A DNA stretch of 64,000 nt from positions 3,472,001 to 3,536,000 of the forward strand of contig NZ_CP016210.1 in the NCBI RefSeq assembly GCF_001682385.1, in the 5' to 3' direction. The notes beneath the pieces are model-generated. The model ran no database searches. It was not told where the DNA came from and was given only the letters and a program-made list of their open reading frames with translations. The number at the start of each line of letters is the position of its first letter. Position 1 is the first letter of the stretch. The DNA comes from Azoarcus olearius (GTDB lineage Bacteria; Pseudomonadota; Gammaproteobacteria; Burkholderiales; Rhodocyclaceae). Shown in pieces: positions 5,242 through 15,089 of the stretch. The position numbers and the translations under genes were made by a program.

Positions 5242-7075
<1,834 letters not shown>

Positions 7076-7146: not shown

Positions 7147-7359
7147 ATGGCGAGGAAATTTCCGCTCCACCCCGCCCACCCGGAGCGCATCTGCTGGGGC
7201 TGCGACAAGTACTGCGCAGCGGATTCGCTGGCCTGCGGCAACGGCTCCGGCCGCACCCAGCATCCCGCCGAACTGCTCGGCGACGACTGGTATCTGTACG
7301 GCGACTGGGGCCTCGACGTCCCCGAAGCCGAGCCGCCGGCAGCGCCGCCCGCGCCCTGA
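7147..7359 (+). CDS. DUF3079 domain protein
   Basis: A 70-residue protein with a conserved start (MARKFPLHPAHPERICWGCD) and the four-cysteine pattern CWGCDKYC...LACG, followed by RTQHPAELLGDDW. This matches DUF3079, a short family seen in proteobacteria near nitrogen-oxide genes. The cysteines suggest metal binding, but no function is known. The tail is Ala/Pro-rich. It lies after the norB terminator and before the Fnr-type box of norQ, so it may have its own weak promoter or depend on read-through. Confidence 0.8.
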   Translation: MARKFPLHPAHPERICWGCDKYCAADSLACGNGSGRTQHPAELLGDDWYLYGDWGLDVPEAEPPAAPPAP

Positions 7360-7505: not shown

Positions 7506-8306
7506 ATGAAGAACGATCTCCCCGACTCCGCCCTGCCCCATTACCAGCCCGCCGGCAACGAAGTGGCGGTGTTCGAGCACGCCTGGAAGAACCGCCTGCC
7601 GCTGCTGATCAAGGGCCCCACGGGCTGCGGCAAGACGCGCTTCGTCGCCCACATGGCGGCGCGCCTCGGGCTGCCGCTCTACACCGTGGCCTGCCACGAC
7701 GACCTCACCGCCGCCGACCTGGTCGGCCGCCACCTGATCGTCGAGGGCGGCACCGTGTGGTGCGATGGCCCGCTGACGCGCGCGGTGCGCGAGGGCGGCA
7801 TCTGCTACCTCGACGAGGTGGTGGAGGCGCGCAAGGACACCACGGTGGTGCTGCACCCCCTGGCGGACGACCGCCGCCTGCTGCCGATCGACCGCACCGG
7901 CGAGCTGCTGCAGGCGCCGCCCGGCTTCATGCTGGTGGTGTCCTACAACCCCGGCTACCAGAACCTGATGAAGGGCATGAAGCCCTCCACCCGCCAGCGC
8001 TTCGTCAGCCTGCGCTTCGACTTTCCGACGCCGGAGCGCGAAGAGGCGGTGCTGCTCGCCGAGACCGGCTGCGCCCCCGACCTGGCCCGCCGCTTGGTTA
8101 GCATCGCCGGCGCGCTGCGCGCACTGAAGGACCGCGACCTGGAAGAGGCCGCCAGCACCCGGCTGCTGGTGTATGCCGCGCTGCTGGTAAAGGACGGCAT
8201 GGACCCGGTGGAGGCCTGCCGCGTCGCCATCGTCGAAAGCCTGACCGACGATATCGAGGTGGCCGCCGCGCTGATGGACGTGGTCGCCGCGAGCTTCGGC
8301 CGCTGA
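7506..8306 (+). CDS. norQ: NorQ, MoxR-type AAA+ ATPase for NO reductase activation
   Basis: A 266-residue AAA+ protein. Walker A is GPTGCGKT at 37-44, Walker B is ICYLDE at about 99-104, and a sensor-1-like VVSYNPGYQ lies near residue 157. NorQ works with NorD to insert the non-heme iron FeB into NorB; in Paracoccus both are required for activity. The sequence is close to the usual NorQ length. A gap of about 120 bp follows before the polyferredoxin gene, and norD comes after that. Confidence 0.95.
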   Translation: MKNDLPDSALPHYQPAGNEVAVFEHAWKNRLPLLIKGPTGCGKTRFVAHMAARLGLPLYTVACHDDLTAADLVGRHLIVEGGTVWCDGPLTRAVREGGICYLDEVVEARKDTTVVLHPLADDRRLLPIDRTGELLQAPPGFMLVVSYNPGYQNLMKGMKPSTRQRFVSLRFDFPTPEREEAVLLAETGCAPDLARRLVSIAGALRALKDRDLEEAASTRLLVYAALLVKDGMDPVEACRVAIVESLTDDIEVAAALMDVVAASFGR

Positions 8307-8425
8307 CCCGCGCCGCCCGCCGGATCGCCCACGATGCGCCGCCTCCCCCACCCACACCATTGCCGGCCCCACTGCCCGCCGCGCGGACTGCCTGCTGCCA
8401 GCGATCGGCCGTTGCGGCCCTTGCG

Positions 8426-9442
8426 ATGACTGACCCCACCTCCCCCACCCTTACGCCGCCGCGCCGGGTGATCCCGATCGCCAATGGCGACGCCGGGAAG
8501 CCGCGCGGACTGCAGCGCCGCCGCCTCGCCTTCCAGGCCGGCTTCTTCCTGCTCTTCGTGCTGGCGCCGGTGTTCGACCTGTTCCGCTACGACCTCGCCG
8601 CCGGCCATGCCTGGCTGCTCGGTTTCGAATGGCGGCTGGGGCTGGACGACTTTCTCGTCGGGCACATCGGCGCCGGGCAGGCCGCGGCCAACGTGCTGCT
8701 GCGCCTCTTCCTGCCGCTGTTCGGCGGCGCCGCGGTCTTCCTGTGGGTGGCGTGGAAATGGGGCCGGCTGTACTGCGGCTGGCTGTGCCCGCACTTCTCG
8801 GTGGTGGAAACCATCAATGCGCTGATGCTGCGCGCCAGCGGCAAGCACAGCGTGTGGGAACGCAAGGCGGTGACGCCCTGGCTGCCGGACGGCACCCAGC
8901 GCCGCATCGACGCGCGCTGGTGGCTGGTGGTGATGCCGGCCGCGATCGGCTTCGCCTTCACCTGGGCGGTGGTCTTCCTCACCTACCTGCTGCCGCCGGC
9001 CGAGGTCTATCCGGCGCTGCTGCACGGCCAACTCGGCCGCAACCCGGGCATCTTCCTCGCCGCGGCAACCACCGTGCTGTCGCTGGAATTCCTCTTCGCC
9101 CGCCACCTGTTCTGCCGCTACGCCTGCGCGGTCGGCCTGTTCCAGAGCCTGGCGTGGATGGGCAACCGTAAGGCGATGGTGGTCGGCTTCGCCCGCGTGC
9201 GCGCCGCCGACTGCGCGAGCTGCCTGCCGGAAAAGCAGTCGGCCTGCGACGCGGTGTGCCCGATGCGGCTGACCCCGCGCAACATCAAGCGCCACATGTT
9301 CACCTGCACCCAGTGCGCGCAATGCATCGACGCCTGCGGCCAGACCCAGGCCGACAACCCGCAGGGTCCGCTGCTGCAGTGGGTGAGCGGCGAAGCCGCG
9401 CGCCAGAACGAAGCCGGCTTCCGCGCCAGGCGGGAGCGCTAG
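8426..9442 (+). CDS. Membrane 4Fe-4S polyferredoxin, NapH/NosR/CcoG-like
   Basis: A 338-residue protein with about five membrane segments. It has two CxxxCP-type motifs of the NapH/NosR/CcoG class (LYCGWLCPHFS and LFCRYACAVG) and a cytoplasmic-type ferredoxin region (CASCLPEKQSACDAVCP, CTQCAQCIDAC). It starts at MTDPTSPT; the frame is open a little further upstream without a convincing start. It sits between norQ and norD with only 3 bp to norD, so it is part of the NO reductase maturation operon. A plausible role is electron supply for FeB insertion or a copper/iron redox step, but this is inference. It is distinct from ccoG at 13618-15024. Confidence 0.85.
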   Translation: MTDPTSPTLTPPRRVIPIANGDAGKPRGLQRRRLAFQAGFFLLFVLAPVFDLFRYDLAAGHAWLLGFEWRLGLDDFLVGHIGAGQAAANVLLRLFLPLFGGAAVFLWVAWKWGRLYCGWLCPHFSVVETINALMLRASGKHSVWERKAVTPWLPDGTQRRIDARWWLVVMPAAIGFAFTWAVVFLTYLLPPAEVYPALLHGQLGRNPGIFLAAATTVLSLEFLFARHLFCRYACAVGLFQSLAWMGNRKAMVVGFARVRAADCASCLPEKQSACDAVCPMRLTPRNIKRHMFTCTQCAQCIDACGQTQADNPQGPLLQWVSGEAARQNEAGFRARRER

Positions 9443-9445
9443 GCC

Positions 9446-11557
9446 ATGGAAGAAGCGGTCGGCAAGCTCTGGCACCGCCTCGTCACCCGCGCCGCCGGCG
9501 GCAGCCATCCGGAAGCGGCAGTGACGCTGAAGGCGGTCGAACGGCGCGTCGGCGTGGTGTTCCGCGCGCTCGGCGGCGACGGCGGCCTGCGGGTGGCCGC
9601 GGCAACCGAGGACGAGCATGGCGCGCGACGGAGCTGGCTGGCGCGCGTCGCCGGCAGCGGCGAGAAGATCGCGCGCGCGCGGCTGGACGAGAACACGCTG
9701 CGGCTGCCACCGAAGATCGAGGTGTTCGCGGATGCGGGGCTGAATCGGGATTTGTATGTGTGGCTGGGGGCGCTGGCGGGGGCTTGGGTGGAGGTGGGGA
9801 AGCGCCGCGCAGGCGCTCCGGATACCGGAGAAGCCCCGAAGCCCCACAACGATAGAGCCGCGCGGTACTGTCCCTCCCCCTTCAAGGGGGAGGTGAGGAG
9901 GGGGATGGGGTTGGAGCTTGCACTGTCGCTTAACCCCATCCCCACCCCACCCCTCCCCTTGAAGGGGAGGGGGCAAGACCGCGCGGTAATCGAGCGTAAT
10001 CGCGCCCCCATCGGTGGAGAGCCGTCCGCAGCAGATCGAACTCCGTCCCTGTCCCAACTCAACCCCGAACTCCACCTCAACCAACTCGCCACCCTCCACC
10101 TGCTCACCCGCTGGCCCGGCCTCGCCGCCAGTTACCGGCGCCTCCTCGTCGCCACCCTCGCACTCCGCCCCGACCCGGCCAGGCTTCCGCCTGCCGAGGC
10201 CGAGCGTGAGCGCGCGCTGCGACGCGCCCTGATCCAGCCCGGCAGCATCGACCTCCTGCCCGACGTGCCGCCCGGCACCCTGGCCGCCTGCCCGGTGCTG
10301 CTGTGGCTGGCGCCGCCCCCGGCCGCCAGCGCCGACAGCCCGGCTCCCACCCGCCAGCACACCGACCACGCCGCCTCAGCCACCGCCAACAACGACGAAG
10401 AACGCCGCGCCCATCGCGCCGAGCGCGTCGACACCCCGCAGCAGAAGCACGGCCTGCTGATGCTGTTCCGCGCGGAAAGCCTGTTGTCGGTGGCGGAGTT
10501 CATCAAGCTCGACCGCAGCACCGACGACGATCCCGACCCCGACGCCGCCTCTGCCGCGGCCGGGCTCGATCACCTGTCGCTCGCGCGCGATGGCGAGCGC
10601 GTCGCCTCCAAGGTGCGCTTCGACCTCGACCTGCCCTCCGCGGCCGAGGACGACGTGGTGCTGGGCGACGGCATCGCGCTGCCGGAATGGGACTACCGCA
10701 AGAACCTGCTGCGCGAGGACCACGTGCGCCTGCTCGAACTCGCCGCCAACCCGGCCGATCCGCGCGCCGCGCCGGCGCCGCTGCCGCCGCGCTTGCGTCG
10801 CGGGGCGCGCCGGCTGCAGCAGCAGTTTGCCGCGCTGCAGCCGGCGCGGCGCTGGATCAAGGCGCAGGCCGACGGCAGCGAACTCGATGTGGACGCCGCG
10901 GTGCGCGCCGCCACCGACCGCGCCTGCGGCCGCCATCCTTCGGATCAGCTGTGGCTGTCGCTGGAGCGGCGCGAGCGCGACCTCGCCTGCCTGGCGCTGG
11001 CCGACCTGTCGCTGTCGACCGACAGCTGGGTGTCGAGCGAGGCGCGCGTGATCGACGTGATCCGCGACAGCCTGCTGCTGTTCGGCGAGGCGCTGGCCGC
11101 CACCGGCGACCGCTTCGCGCTGTGCGGCTTCTCGTCGGTGAAGCGCAGCCAGGTGCGCTTCCACCGCCTGAAGGACTTCGACGAGCGCTTCGACGACCGC
11201 ATCCGCGGCCGGGTGATGGCGATCAAGCCCGGTTACTACACCCGGCTGGGCGCCGCCATCCGCCACGCCACCGCGCTGCTCGAACCGCAGCCGGTGCAGC
11301 GCCGGGTGCTGCTGATCCTGTCCGACGGCAAGCCCAACGACCTCGATCTGTACGACGGCCGCTACGGCATCGAGGACACCCGCATGGCGGTGGCGGAAGC
11401 GCGCCGCCGCGGCGTACTGCCCTTCTGCGTCACCATCGACCGCGAAGGCGCCGACTACCTGCCCCATCTGTTCGGCCCGGCCGGCTACGCGGTGATCCGC
11501 AAGCCGGAGGAACTGCCCGCCCGGCTGCCGATGTTCTACGCCCAGCTCACGAGGTGA
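9446..11557 (+). CDS. norD: NorD, von Willebrand factor A-domain NO reductase activation protein
   Basis: A 703-residue protein. The N-terminal part is NorD-like (VGKLWHRLVTRAAGG, DAGLNRDLYVWLGAL). The C-terminal VWA domain has the MIDAS motif DLSLSTDS at about residue 520, followed by PGYYTRLGAAIRHA and LSDGKPNDLDLY. With NorQ it activates NorB. Residues about 115-200 are unlike NorD: they include a translated copy of the dispersed inverted repeat (SLNPIPTPPLPLKGRGQ) and low-quality flanks, after which NorD-like sequence resumes at ELHLNQLATLHLLTRWPGLA. The reading frame stays open, so the protein may tolerate an inserted linker. The Dnr-like gene follows after 2 bp. Confidence 0.93.
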   Translation: MEEAVGKLWHRLVTRAAGGSHPEAAVTLKAVERRVGVVFRALGGDGGLRVAAATEDEHGARRSWLARVAGSGEKIARARLDENTLRLPPKIEVFADAGLNRDLYVWLGALAGAWVEVGKRRAGAPDTGEAPKPHNDRAARYCPSPFKGEVRRGMGLELALSLNPIPTPPLPLKGRGQDRAVIERNRAPIGGEPSAADRTPSLSQLNPELHLNQLATLHLLTRWPGLAASYRRLLVATLALRPDPARLPPAEAERERALRRALIQPGSIDLLPDVPPGTLAACPVLLWLAPPPAASADSPAPTRQHTDHAASATANNDEERRAHRAERVDTPQQKHGLLMLFRAESLLSVAEFIKLDRSTDDDPDPDAASAAAGLDHLSLARDGERVASKVRFDLDLPSAAEDDVVLGDGIALPEWDYRKNLLREDHVRLLELAANPADPRAAPAPLPPRLRRGARRLQQQFAALQPARRWIKAQADGSELDVDAAVRAATDRACGRHPSDQLWLSLERRERDLACLALADLSLSTDSWVSSEARVIDVIRDSLLLFGEALAATGDRFALCGFSSVKRSQVRFHRLKDFDERFDDRIRGRVMAIKPGYYTRLGAAIRHATALLEPQPVQRRVLLILSDGKPNDLDLYDGRYGIEDTRMAVAEARRRGVLPFCVTIDREGADYLPHLFGPAGYAVIRKPEELPARLPMFYAQLTR
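9871..9973. repeat. Dispersed inverted-repeat element inside norD
   Basis: Unit A at 9871-9912 and its near reverse complement, unit B, at 9932-9973 are the same sequence family as the intergenic block at 1551-1711 (GGGGATGGGGT tail; AAGGGGAGG core). The loop here is only about 19 bp. Smaller hairpins lie just upstream at 9801-9817 and 9817-9829. The whole block is read through in frame by norD. Confidence 0.85.
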
Positions 11558-11559
11558 CG

Positions 11560-12324
11560 ATGCGCCACGAGTGCCCTCCCTGCCTGTCGCCCGCGGACGC
11601 CGCCACGCCCCTGCCCGCCGCCGCGCGCACGCTCGACATCCCCACCGAGCGCATCTGCCAGCTGCTCGCCACCGCGCCGCTGTTCGACGGCCTCGCCCAA
11701 GGCGAGATCGCGCGGTTTGCGCGCGGCGTGCGCGAGATCAAGGCCGCGCGCGGCGAGATCCTGTTCCACCGCGGCGACGCCTGCAGCGGCTTCCACCTGA
11801 TCCTCACCGGCCAGATCAAGCTCGCCTTCGTCTCGGCGGCCGGCAACGAGAAGGTGGTGGAGATCCTGCACCCCGGCCAGACCTTCGGCGAGGCGGTGAT
11901 GTTCATGGACACGCCCTACGTGGTGATGGCGCAGGCGCTGGCCGACAGCACGCTGCTGCATATCGCCAAGCAGGTGGTGTTCGACGAGATGGAGCGCGAC
12001 CCGGTGTTCTGCCGCAAGCTGATTGCCGGCCTGTCGCGCCGGCTGCACCACCTGATCGCCGACGTCGAGAACTATTCGCTGCGCTCCGGGCGCGACCGCA
12101 TCGTGGGCTACCTGCTGCGCGAGGTCGACGACGACAACCCCGCCGGCAGCCGCGTAGCGATACGGCTGCGCACCAGCAAGGCGACGATCGCGTCGCGCCT
12201 CAACCTCACCCAGGAACACTTCTCGCGCATCCTGCACGACCTGATCGAGGCCGGGCTGATCGAGGTCGCCGGGCGCACGATCCGCATTCCGGACCTGGCC
12301 CGCCTGCGCGCCAGCCTGGACTGA
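11560..12324 (+). CDS. Crp/Fnr-family regulator, Dnr-like (second copy)
   Basis: A 254-residue protein. Beta-barrel motifs FHLILTGQIKLAFVSAAGNE and GQTFGEAVMFMDTPY closely parallel those of the first copy at 2314. The HTH region reads SKATIASRLNLTQEHFSRIL, with E-x-x-SR in the recognition helix. The N-terminus has two cysteines (ECPPC) but not the four-cysteine Fnr cluster, so NO sensing in the Dnr manner is more likely than a 4Fe-4S oxygen switch. The start ATG is 2 bp after the norD stop with GAGGTG just upstream, so it is probably co-transcribed with norQ-norD, which would give feedback control. Confidence 0.88.
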   Translation: MRHECPPCLSPADAATPLPAAARTLDIPTERICQLLATAPLFDGLAQGEIARFARGVREIKAARGEILFHRGDACSGFHLILTGQIKLAFVSAAGNEKVVEILHPGQTFGEAVMFMDTPYVVMAQALADSTLLHIAKQVVFDEMERDPVFCRKLIAGLSRRLHHLIADVENYSLRSGRDRIVGYLLREVDDDNPAGSRVAIRLRTSKATIASRLNLTQEHFSRILHDLIEAGLIEVAGRTIRIPDLARLRASLD

Positions 12325-13617: not shown

Positions 13618-15024
13618 CTAGGGCATCCAGAACCTGGCGGTTTCGCTGACGCGGACGCCGGCGTTGGCGGTGTCCGTCACGGTGAAGCGGATCGGGTGCG
13701 CACCCGGCGCCGCCGCGCCCGCCTCCACCCGCACCTGCGCGGTGGCGGCGGCGGTGGACGCCGGCGCGACCTGCACCTCCATGCGCTCCGCGAGGTGGAT
13801 GCCTTCCAGCCCGTCCACGGTTACAGCATAGGTGCGCGGCTGCTCGCTCGCGTTGATGAGTTGCAGACGGAAAGTATTTTCAATGGAGCCGTCGGCCGCC
13901 TCGCTCGCCAGCGTGGCGCGGTCGCGCTGGATGTCGAGCTTGAGCGGCATGCGGGTGGCAAGCGACCACACGGTGCCGCCGAGCAGCGCCACGAACACCG
14001 CGCTATAGACCAGCACCCGCGGCCGCACGGCACGACGCAGGATGGTGGCGCGCGTGCTGTGCTGCTTCACCGCGTTCTCGGTGGAGTAGCGGATCAGCCC
14101 GCGCGGGTAGTTCATCTTGTCCATCACCTGATCGCAGGCGTCGATGCAGGCGGCGCAGCCGATGCACTCCAGTTGCAAGCCGTTGCGGATGTCGATGCCG
14201 GTGGGGCAGACCTGCACGCACATGCTGCAGTCGATGCAGTCGCCCAGCCCTTTTTCGCGCGCATCCACCTTCTTCGAACGCCCGCCGCGCGGCTCGCCGC
14301 GTTCCTCGTCGTAGGCCACGATCAGGGTGTCGGGGTCGAACATCACGAACTGGAACTGGGCGTAGGGGCAGATGTACTTGCACATCTGCTCGCGCATGAA
14401 GCCGGCGTTGCCATAGGTGGCGGCGCCGTAGAACAGCACCCAGAAGGTTTCCCAGCCGGACAGCGACAGCGTCATCGCCTCGGCCGCGAGTTCGCGGATC
14501 GGCGTGAAATAGCCGACGAAGGTGAAGCCGGTCCACAGCGCCACCAGCAGCCAGACCGCGTGCTTGGCGGTCTTCAGCCCGACCTTGCGCGGCGTCCACG
14601 CCGCGGCATCCAGCTTCATGCGCTTCGCGCGGTCGCCCTCGATGGTCTTCTCTATCCACAGGAAGAGTTCGGTATAGACCGTCTGCGGACAGGTGTAGCC
14701 GCACCACACGCGCCCCGCCACCGTGGTGAACAGGAACAGCGCCAGCGCCGAAATCACCAGCAGCACCGCGAGGTAGATGGTGTCCTGCGGCCACAGCACG
14801 AAGTCGAAGACGTAGAAGCGGCGCGCGTCGAGGTCGAACAGCACCGCCTGGCGGCCGTTCCAGGGCAGCCAGCACAGGCCGTAGAAGACGATTTGCGTCA
14901 GCCAGGCGAAGACCCAGCGCCAGCGCTGGAACACGCCACTGATCGAACGCGGATAGACCTTGGGTTCTGAAGCAAACAGGGGTTGGATGTTGATGACGCG
15001 CTGGCTTTTGGTGGGCTCGGACAT
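13618..15024 (-). CDS. ccoG: CcoG, copper-reducing cytochrome c oxidase accessory protein
   Basis: About 468 residues from MSEPTKSQR; an in-frame ATG at 15039 would add five residues, and neither has a clear ribosome site. Features are four or five membrane segments, the VWCGYTCPQTVYTE and CKYICPYAQFQF motifs, two 4Fe-4S clusters (CIDCSMCVQVCPTGIDI, CIGCAACIDACDQV), and a C-terminal periplasmic immunoglobulin-like domain. CcoG (also called RdxA/FixG) reduces Cu(II) for cbb3 oxidase assembly. No ccoNOP genes are in the window; here it is divergent from nsrR across two NsrR-type operators. Confidence 0.92.
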   Translation of the reverse strand: MSEPTKSQRVINIQPLFASEPKVYPRSISGVFQRWRWVFAWLTQIVFYGLCWLPWNGRQAVLFDLDARRFYVFDFVLWPQDTIYLAVLLVISALALFLFTTVAGRVWCGYTCPQTVYTELFLWIEKTIEGDRAKRMKLDAAAWTPRKVGLKTAKHAVWLLVALWTGFTFVGYFTPIRELAAEAMTLSLSGWETFWVLFYGAATYGNAGFMREQMCKYICPYAQFQFVMFDPDTLIVAYDEERGEPRGGRSKKVDAREKGLGDCIDCSMCVQVCPTGIDIRNGLQLECIGCAACIDACDQVMDKMNYPRGLIRYSTENAVKQHSTRATILRRAVRPRVLVYSAVFVALLGGTVWSLATRMPLKLDIQRDRATLASEAADGSIENTFRLQLINASEQPRTYAVTVDGLEGIHLAERMEVQVAPASTAAATAQVRVEAGAAAPGAHPIRFTVTDTANAGVRVSETARFWMP

Positions 15025-15089
15025 GGAGAGGCGCCGCATGGCACGGTAAGGAAAGACGGACCGTTGCCGGCGGCGTTGCCAGCGCGCAT

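Follow-up and report, generated by a model that had tools for sequence, protein, structure and literature searches.

The cNor gene cluster of Azoarcus olearius raised the question of what a gene for a membrane iron-sulfur protein does between norQ and norD, whose products are described, in excerpts of two studies, as essential for FeB insertion into cNor by a mechanism that is still poorly understood (PMC13036017, PMC9976466). The cluster was located in a 64,000-nucleotide stretch of the genome, which we refer to as the window (Table 1). The coordinates bore out what the first-pass annotation had reported of this gene, which we call pfd (polyferredoxin): it lies between norQ and norD, and its stop codon at positions 9440 to 9442 is followed by the norD ATG at 9446, leaving a gap of 3 bp. 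A genome search identified one copy of pfd in the 4.45-Mb, one-contig genome. In the open-license part of PMC, no paper on this gene was found, and excerpts of PMC13038864, PMC6152468, PMC7285207, and PMC5918138 contributed nothing about it.

Table 1. Features of the nor cluster in the window
Feature	Coordinates	Strand	Basis
norC (cytochrome c subunit of cNor)	5242..5667	+	Pfam Cytochrom_C
norB (catalytic subunit; NorB clade in which pfd occurs)	5696..7075	+	Pfam COX1; NorB tree
Small DUF3079 gene, between norB and norQ	7147..7359	+	Pfam; layouts of relatives
norQ (MoxR AAA+ ATPase)	7506..8306	+	AAA_5 + CbbQ_C
Putative lost-gene scar, 109 bp	8314..8422	.	blastn vs G760 locus L260, layout comparison
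pfd (polyferredoxin), 338 aa, 4-TM, CGWLCPH + RHxFCxxxCA motifs, two C-terminal 4Fe-4S motifs	8426..9442	+	
norD (VWA partner of NorQ)	9446..11557	+	Pfam VWA
Crp/Fnr-family regulator, last gene of the cluster	11560..12324	+	cNMP_binding + HTH_Crp_2

Comparison with the nearest relative yielded dN/dS values of 0.14 for norQ, 0.29 for pfd, and 0.38 for norD. The value for pfd indicated purifying selection; because the gene was also intact, we rejected the idea that pfd is decaying. Two further observations concerned its neighbors. The position held by the DUF3079 gene is often occupied by norE in relatives, and a DUF3079 gene is also present in G760, a genome from the window's genus and its closest relative here. 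In addition, a palindromic repeat of about 110 to 130 bp (9858 to 9986) lies in frame within norD and makes NorD longer; about 40 further copies were found genome-wide (80 matches, with both strands of the palindrome counted). NorD was 703 aa long in the window, and the open frames were 710 aa in G760 and 618 to 662 aa in six other genomes.

The first-pass annotation had described pfd as inserted between norQ and norD, and the comparison with other genomes did not bear this out. A search of 369 genomes of the class found a match to pfd in 82. The best match was at least 139 bits in 42 of these genomes, and this value defined the presence of pfd in the class sample; the other matches reached 73 bits at most and were mostly to frames of CcoG or NapH length. 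Gene order was then tabulated for 80 named pfd loci, mostly from Thauera, Azoarcus, Aromatoleum, Dechloromonas, Zoogloea, and relatives. The next recognized gene upstream of pfd was tm4870 in 71 loci and norQ in 4 (none in 5), where tm4870 encodes a membrane protein of about 135 aa that is weakly like DUF4870. The next recognized gene downstream was norD in 58 loci and a CopD-like gene in 12 (none in 10), and the usual order was norC-norB-(norE-norF)-norQ-tm4870-pfd-norD. In Sphaerotilus, the order was norQ-pfd-norD. The phylum sample had pfd in 17 of 398 genomes, including the window's, and 12 of the 17 were outside the window's class. All 16 phylum loci besides the window's were within a nor cluster, with norD next downstream in 15. 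The order norQ-tm4870-pfd-norD prevailed in a large NorB clade that spans at least two classes of Pseudomonadota. We therefore rejected a local insertion as the origin of pfd. The genome paper on Dechloromonas aromatica assigns NorDQEBC to gene numbers 582097 and 582100 to 582103 (excerpt of PMC2907700); if the numbering runs consecutively on the chromosome, two genes that the excerpt does not mention would lie between norD and norQ.

The likeness to NapH, NosR, and CcoG noted in the first-pass annotation held for a shared membrane module and broke down at the level of CcoG and NapH membership. Fer4_5 was the sole Pfam domain above cutoff in the window protein, and it was found in all 80 pfd members. 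The window protein scored 48.9 bits against the CcoG model TIGR02745 (cutoff, 316.7), so it is not a CcoG equivalog, and 42.4 bits against the NapH model TIGR02163 (cutoff, 213.05), too low for NapH membership. All 80 members matched TIGR02745 at an E value of 0.001 (best E value, 6.7e-19), and 30 of the 80 weakly matched the NosR model (best E value, 1.4e-7). The Ig-like FixG_C domain was absent from the window protein and from the families matched by the 80 members, and no FMN-binding domain was detected in Pfam scans of the window protein or in the 80 members at an E value of 0.01. Neither Pfam nor NCBIfam had a named model for pfd itself.

An AlphaFold2 model of pfd (pLDDT, 86.4; pTM, 0.83) contained four long helices, the first of which is preceded by only about 26 residues. 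Helices 1 and 2 are separated by a small beta-hairpin, and helices 2 and 4 are each followed by Cys motifs. The four helices, two membrane-near Cys pairs, and two 4Fe-4S motifs are those of the membrane module of CcoG, NapH, and NosR. Loop 2 averaged 6.8 Lys plus Arg residues and the C-terminal part averaged 15.6, compared to 2.0 and 0.2 for the remaining two loops. This concentration of Lys and Arg in the regions with the Cys motifs predicts a cytoplasmic location for the Fe-S side. We infer this topology and the two 4Fe-4S clusters from the motifs, the model, and the charge distribution. Foldseek searches of the PDB with the models of pfd and tm4870 (pLDDT of the latter, 91.8) returned no match at an E value of 0.001 or below. 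A VIA-align comparison of the fold found no similar solved structure (best Z, 4.4), and a PDB sequence search found no relative except for generic ferredoxin stretches.

In a 137-row pfd alignment, two rows of which were the window's own gene, 12 Cys residues, H123, and H227 were invariant. Eight of the Cys residues are in the C-terminal 4Fe-4S motifs, and the other four form the pairs C117/C121 and C230/C234; all were shared with the CcoG and NapH sequences compared. The two His residues were not: H123 was Q in 4 of 4 CcoG rows and V in 8 of 8 NapH rows, and H227 was E in the 4 CcoG rows and R or E in NapH. The second Cys pair was CX3CA in pfd, with A235 nearly invariant, and CX3CP in CcoG, NapH, and YccM. 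In the tree, 41 pfd rows formed one group (support, 95/97), the 4 CcoG rows formed another (100/99), and NapH was apart; CcoG was closer than NapH to pfd in this tree, the root of which is uncertain. Judged by sequence, pfd represents a separate branch within a known superfamily, and this branch accompanies one cNor lineage.

This placement can be compared with known systems. Like CcoG (FixG, RdxA), pfd has the Fer4_5 module, two Cys pairs, and two 4Fe-4S motifs, and both are encoded alongside an enzyme of the heme-copper superfamily; pfd differs in its lack of a C-terminal FixG_C domain, in CPH for CPQ, in H227 for E, in CX3CA for CX3CP, and in its separate clade. With NapH/MauN, a quinol dehydrogenase ferredoxin subunit, pfd shares the four helices, the two Cys pairs, and the cytoplasmic 4Fe-4S pair, but no NapG-like partner was seen adjoining pfd and the clades are separate. 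NosR, an accessory protein of N2O reductase, has the membrane module and the denitrification-operon membership in common with pfd, which lacks the FMN-binding domain. Escherichia coli YccM likewise resembles a short CcoG that lacks the Ig-like domain, and it shares H227 (IRHAWC); however, it is only about 22 to 28% identical to the pfd rows, lacks H123, and keeps CX3CP. In an excerpt of work on RdhC, the membrane segments of NapH are discussed as a quinol-oxidizing part, and it is stated not to be known whether the membrane Cys pairs of such proteins form disulfides or bind a cluster (PMC5928378).

The gene went with one type of cNor. A tree of 110 NorB proteins had a fully supported split (SH-aLRT, 100), with 17 of 17 rows from pfd-less genomes on one side and 66 rows with pfd and 27 without on the other. 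When the phylum genomes were sorted by identity to the window NorB, pfd was present in 16 of 26 at 67% or more and in 0 of 24 at 57 to 62%. At the 13 loci of the other NorB type with enough sequence, norQ was directly before norD; the fourteenth was a 6-kb contig on which only norC-norB was visible. The first-pass statement that NorQ and NorD are usually paired thus applied to the other NorB type (at 13 of the 14 loci) and not to the window's. Against the window NorB, PDB entry 3o0r, which we take to be Pseudomonas aeruginosa NorB, scored 786 bits, and 4xyd, which we take to be Roseobacter denitrificans NorB, scored 534 bits. The lower score of 4xyd puts the Rhodobacteraceae NorB type on the pfd-less side, and on taxonomic grounds the cNor of Paracoccus denitrificans is presumably of that type. 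These observations suggested a place for the P. denitrificans system in the pfd-less lineage. The Paracoccus cluster has norC, norB, norQ, and norD in common with the window and norE in common with pfd-type clusters, and it is described in an excerpt as six genes, norCBQDEF, without pfd or tm4870 (PMC13036017).

The association with one NorB type also bears on whether pfd is a CcoG- or YccM-like copper(II) reductase that merely travels with denitrification genes. CcoG, the nearer of the two relatives in the tree with the uncertain root, is described in part of a review as an assembly reductase for cbb3 oxidase that reduces Cu(II) and reportedly not Fe(III) (PMC7558416). We nevertheless consider this explanation improbable, given that pfd follows one NorB type (16 of 26 versus 0 of 24 phylum genomes), that three real CcoG genes are already in the genome, all above the family cutoff, and that H123, H227, and the lost Pro of the second CX3CP motif set pfd apart. 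The presence of three ccoG genes also led us to reject pfd as a substitute for a missing CcoG. One true ccoG is in the window at 13618 to 15039 on the minus strand, 1.3 kb past the Crp/Fnr gene; it scores above the family cutoff and has FixG_C.

Within the pfd-associated NorB type, some genomes lacked pfd: 16 of 57 in the class sample and 5 of 16 among the relatives. The latter five include two members of the window's genus (G759 and G761), both of which keep cNorB. On the NorB tree, pfd presence and absence required at least 20 changes, 10 of which were forced by well-supported branches, so the enzyme evidently can do without pfd. The history reads best as ancestral presence followed by repeated loss, with some gains possible.

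Genomes with pfd nearly always had cNorB. In the class sample, 41 of 42 pfd genomes also had cNorB with an identity of at least 68%; the exception (G208) was 87% complete, and its pfd contig (L169) reads norF-norQ-tm4870-pfd-norD. Among 41 relatives, cNorB was found in 11 of 11 pfd genomes. In the phylum sample, 16 of 17 pfd genomes had a NorB with at least 73% identity to that of the window; the other (G552), which was 57% complete, had no NorB match at the threshold used. These counts are not independent because the samples overlap (e.g., G000, G162, G323, and G365), and the genome search scored part of the first-look candidates, so an absence may be a miss. At 12 of the 80 named loci, pfd was without any nor gene in the 9- to 21-kb stretch. 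In the 12 genomes concerned, mainly Zoogloea, NorB was present elsewhere in 11, and the unlinked pfd was the sole copy in 9. Similarly, G369 has a norQ-tm4870-norD operon and keeps pfd elsewhere in the genome. Since cNorB was kept where pfd was unlinked, the connection rests on more than adjacency, and a functional link between pfd and cNor is strongly supported by linkage together with co-occurrence that outlasts the loss of linkage.

The majority of the unlinked genes were in tm4870-pfd-CopD-like trios. Trios without nor genes nearby were seen in Zoogloea and relatives (L075, L077, L078, L080, L082, L085, L092, and L096; tm4870 was not detected in L075), and at L068, L081, L094, and L097 the trio adjoins norD. 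We assume by analogy that the CopD-like protein may bind heme b. In Zoogloea-type genomes, norC-norB was apart, and norQ was found in just 1 of 6 stretches, 7.5 kb off (L202 to L206 and L211); the components are thus dispersed yet retained. Thauera-like and related genomes also carried a second group of pfd-like genes that lie outside nor operons (L064, L070, L076, and L098); in L064 and L076, these genes adjoin genes for an ABC transporter and a metallo-beta-lactamase-fold protein, named by sequence inspection.

The direct observations are the presence and conservation of pfd, its separate clade, its linkage to nor genes, and its occurrence together with cNorB; the FeB step discussed below, the substrate, and the source of electrons are inferred only. 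Our favored reading, to which we give roughly even chances, is that pfd is a dedicated accessory of one cNor clade that carries electrons for the maturation or upkeep of the enzyme, with FeB loading as the likeliest step. The protein would be a CcoG/NapH-like membrane electron carrier with four helices and a small periplasmic beta-hairpin. The Cys pairs C117/C121 and C230/C234 would be at the membrane edge, flanked by H123 and H227, and the two 4Fe-4S clusters would be on the cytoplasmic side. Electrons would most likely enter from quinol or a cytoplasmic donor and be spent, on the cytoplasmic side, on a reduction that helps to mature or maintain cNor; the likeliest such step is holding iron ferrous for FeB loading by NorQD.

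That pfd may supply electrons for FeB, as the first-pass annotation had proposed, is favored by the predicted location of the Fe-S domain in the cytoplasm, the side where NorQD works, and by kinship with CcoG, the assembly reductase of another heme-copper superfamily enzyme (excerpt of PMC7558416). The absence of pfd from 16 of the 57 class genomes and its ability to sit away from norQD count against it, and because the same source reports that CcoG does not reduce Fe(III), the iron version stays conjectural. When P. denitrificans cNor was produced in E. coli, it gained FeB with NorQ and NorD (excerpt of PMC9976466). This result is not decisive for pfd, since that enzyme is probably of the other NorB type and E. 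coli has the distant relative YccM.

The upkeep alternative is that pfd is an electron transfer or repair protein that uses quinol electrons to reactivate oxidized or NO-damaged cNor, or NO-damaged clusters, as has been proposed for NosR with N2O reductase. We regard it as possible and gave it about half the weight of the favored reading. It would account for layouts in which pfd is linked to norB, norE, or nnrS without adjacent norQD, namely norC-norB-pfd-norE-norF-norQ-norD in Amphritea and norC-norB-x-x-pfd-nnrS in Thiothrix; in Amphritea and Thiothrix plasmids, norB rather than norQ precedes pfd. The stand-alone Zoogloea trios also fit a tie to the enzyme rather than to NorQD. On the other hand, the majority position of pfd is between norQ and norD, NorC receives electrons on the periplasmic side whereas the Fe-S domain of pfd is predicted to be cytoplasmic, and the FMN domain characteristic of NosR was not found in the 80 members at an E value of 0.01. 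The membrane module common to pfd, NapH, and NosR is consistent with such a role (excerpt of PMC5928378).

A further role on the cytoplasmic side was suggested by the regulatory disulfide in the NorQ P-loop described in a 2026 cryo-EM study, which pfd might reduce. The C46-C68 disulfide of PdNorQ shuts off the ATPase (excerpt of PMC13036017), and the predicted cytoplasmic orientation of pfd would place it on the same side as NorQ. However, all 17 NorQ rows from loci lacking pfd retained the matching Cys pair (C41 and C63 in the window), and C41 was Val in 15 of 116 NorQ rows from other loci. This is the reverse of what dependence on pfd predicts, and we disfavored a NorQ disulfide reductase role as very unlikely.

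The window itself differed from the usual arrangement in tm4870. In G760, the order is norQ-tm4870-pfd-norD, and pfd is 91% identical to the window's. The norQ-pfd interval is 403 bp with tm4870 in G760, compared to 109 bp without similarity in the window (8314 to 8422; blastn), and no tm4870 homolog was found in the window's genome (best E value, 0.028). On this sequence comparison, the window's own oddity is the loss of tm4870, with 8314 to 8422 as the putative scar. Similarity to G760 resumes 3 bp ahead of the pfd ATG (8423 to 8426), so any pfd ribosome-binding site would have been replaced upon the loss; no obvious Shine-Dalgarno sequence was seen upstream of pfd by eye. Conversely, G759 has kept tm4870 and lost pfd. 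Either gene can therefore be retained alone, and an obligate pfd-tm4870 complex was not supported. In the tm4870 protein (e.g., L031:9562-9966), H59 and H104 were present in 98% of 101 sequences and N29 was present in all.

A more specific version of the favored reading, which we advance tentatively and at well below even chances, is that pfd is the iron counterpart of CcoG and the electron source for FeB in one of the two cNor lineages. NorB has FeB at the place of CuB in the related CcoN, and the companion reductase would have changed along with the metal. The switch from copper to iron would be marked by H123, H227, and a second motif that has lost its Pro, and tm4870, with its two near-invariant His residues, may be a quinol- or heme-binding partner in many cases.

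These findings indicate that tm4870 and pfd are usual additions to the six-gene cNor cluster in a lineage with many wastewater and soil denitrifiers. They also suggest that the sufficiency of NorQ and NorD in P. denitrificans, whose lineage is apparently without pfd, should not be generalized. If pfd supplies FeB electrons or protects cNor, it would bear on the loading of an iron active site and on N2O formation, and the natural occurrence of strains with and without pfd inside one genus makes the question testable.
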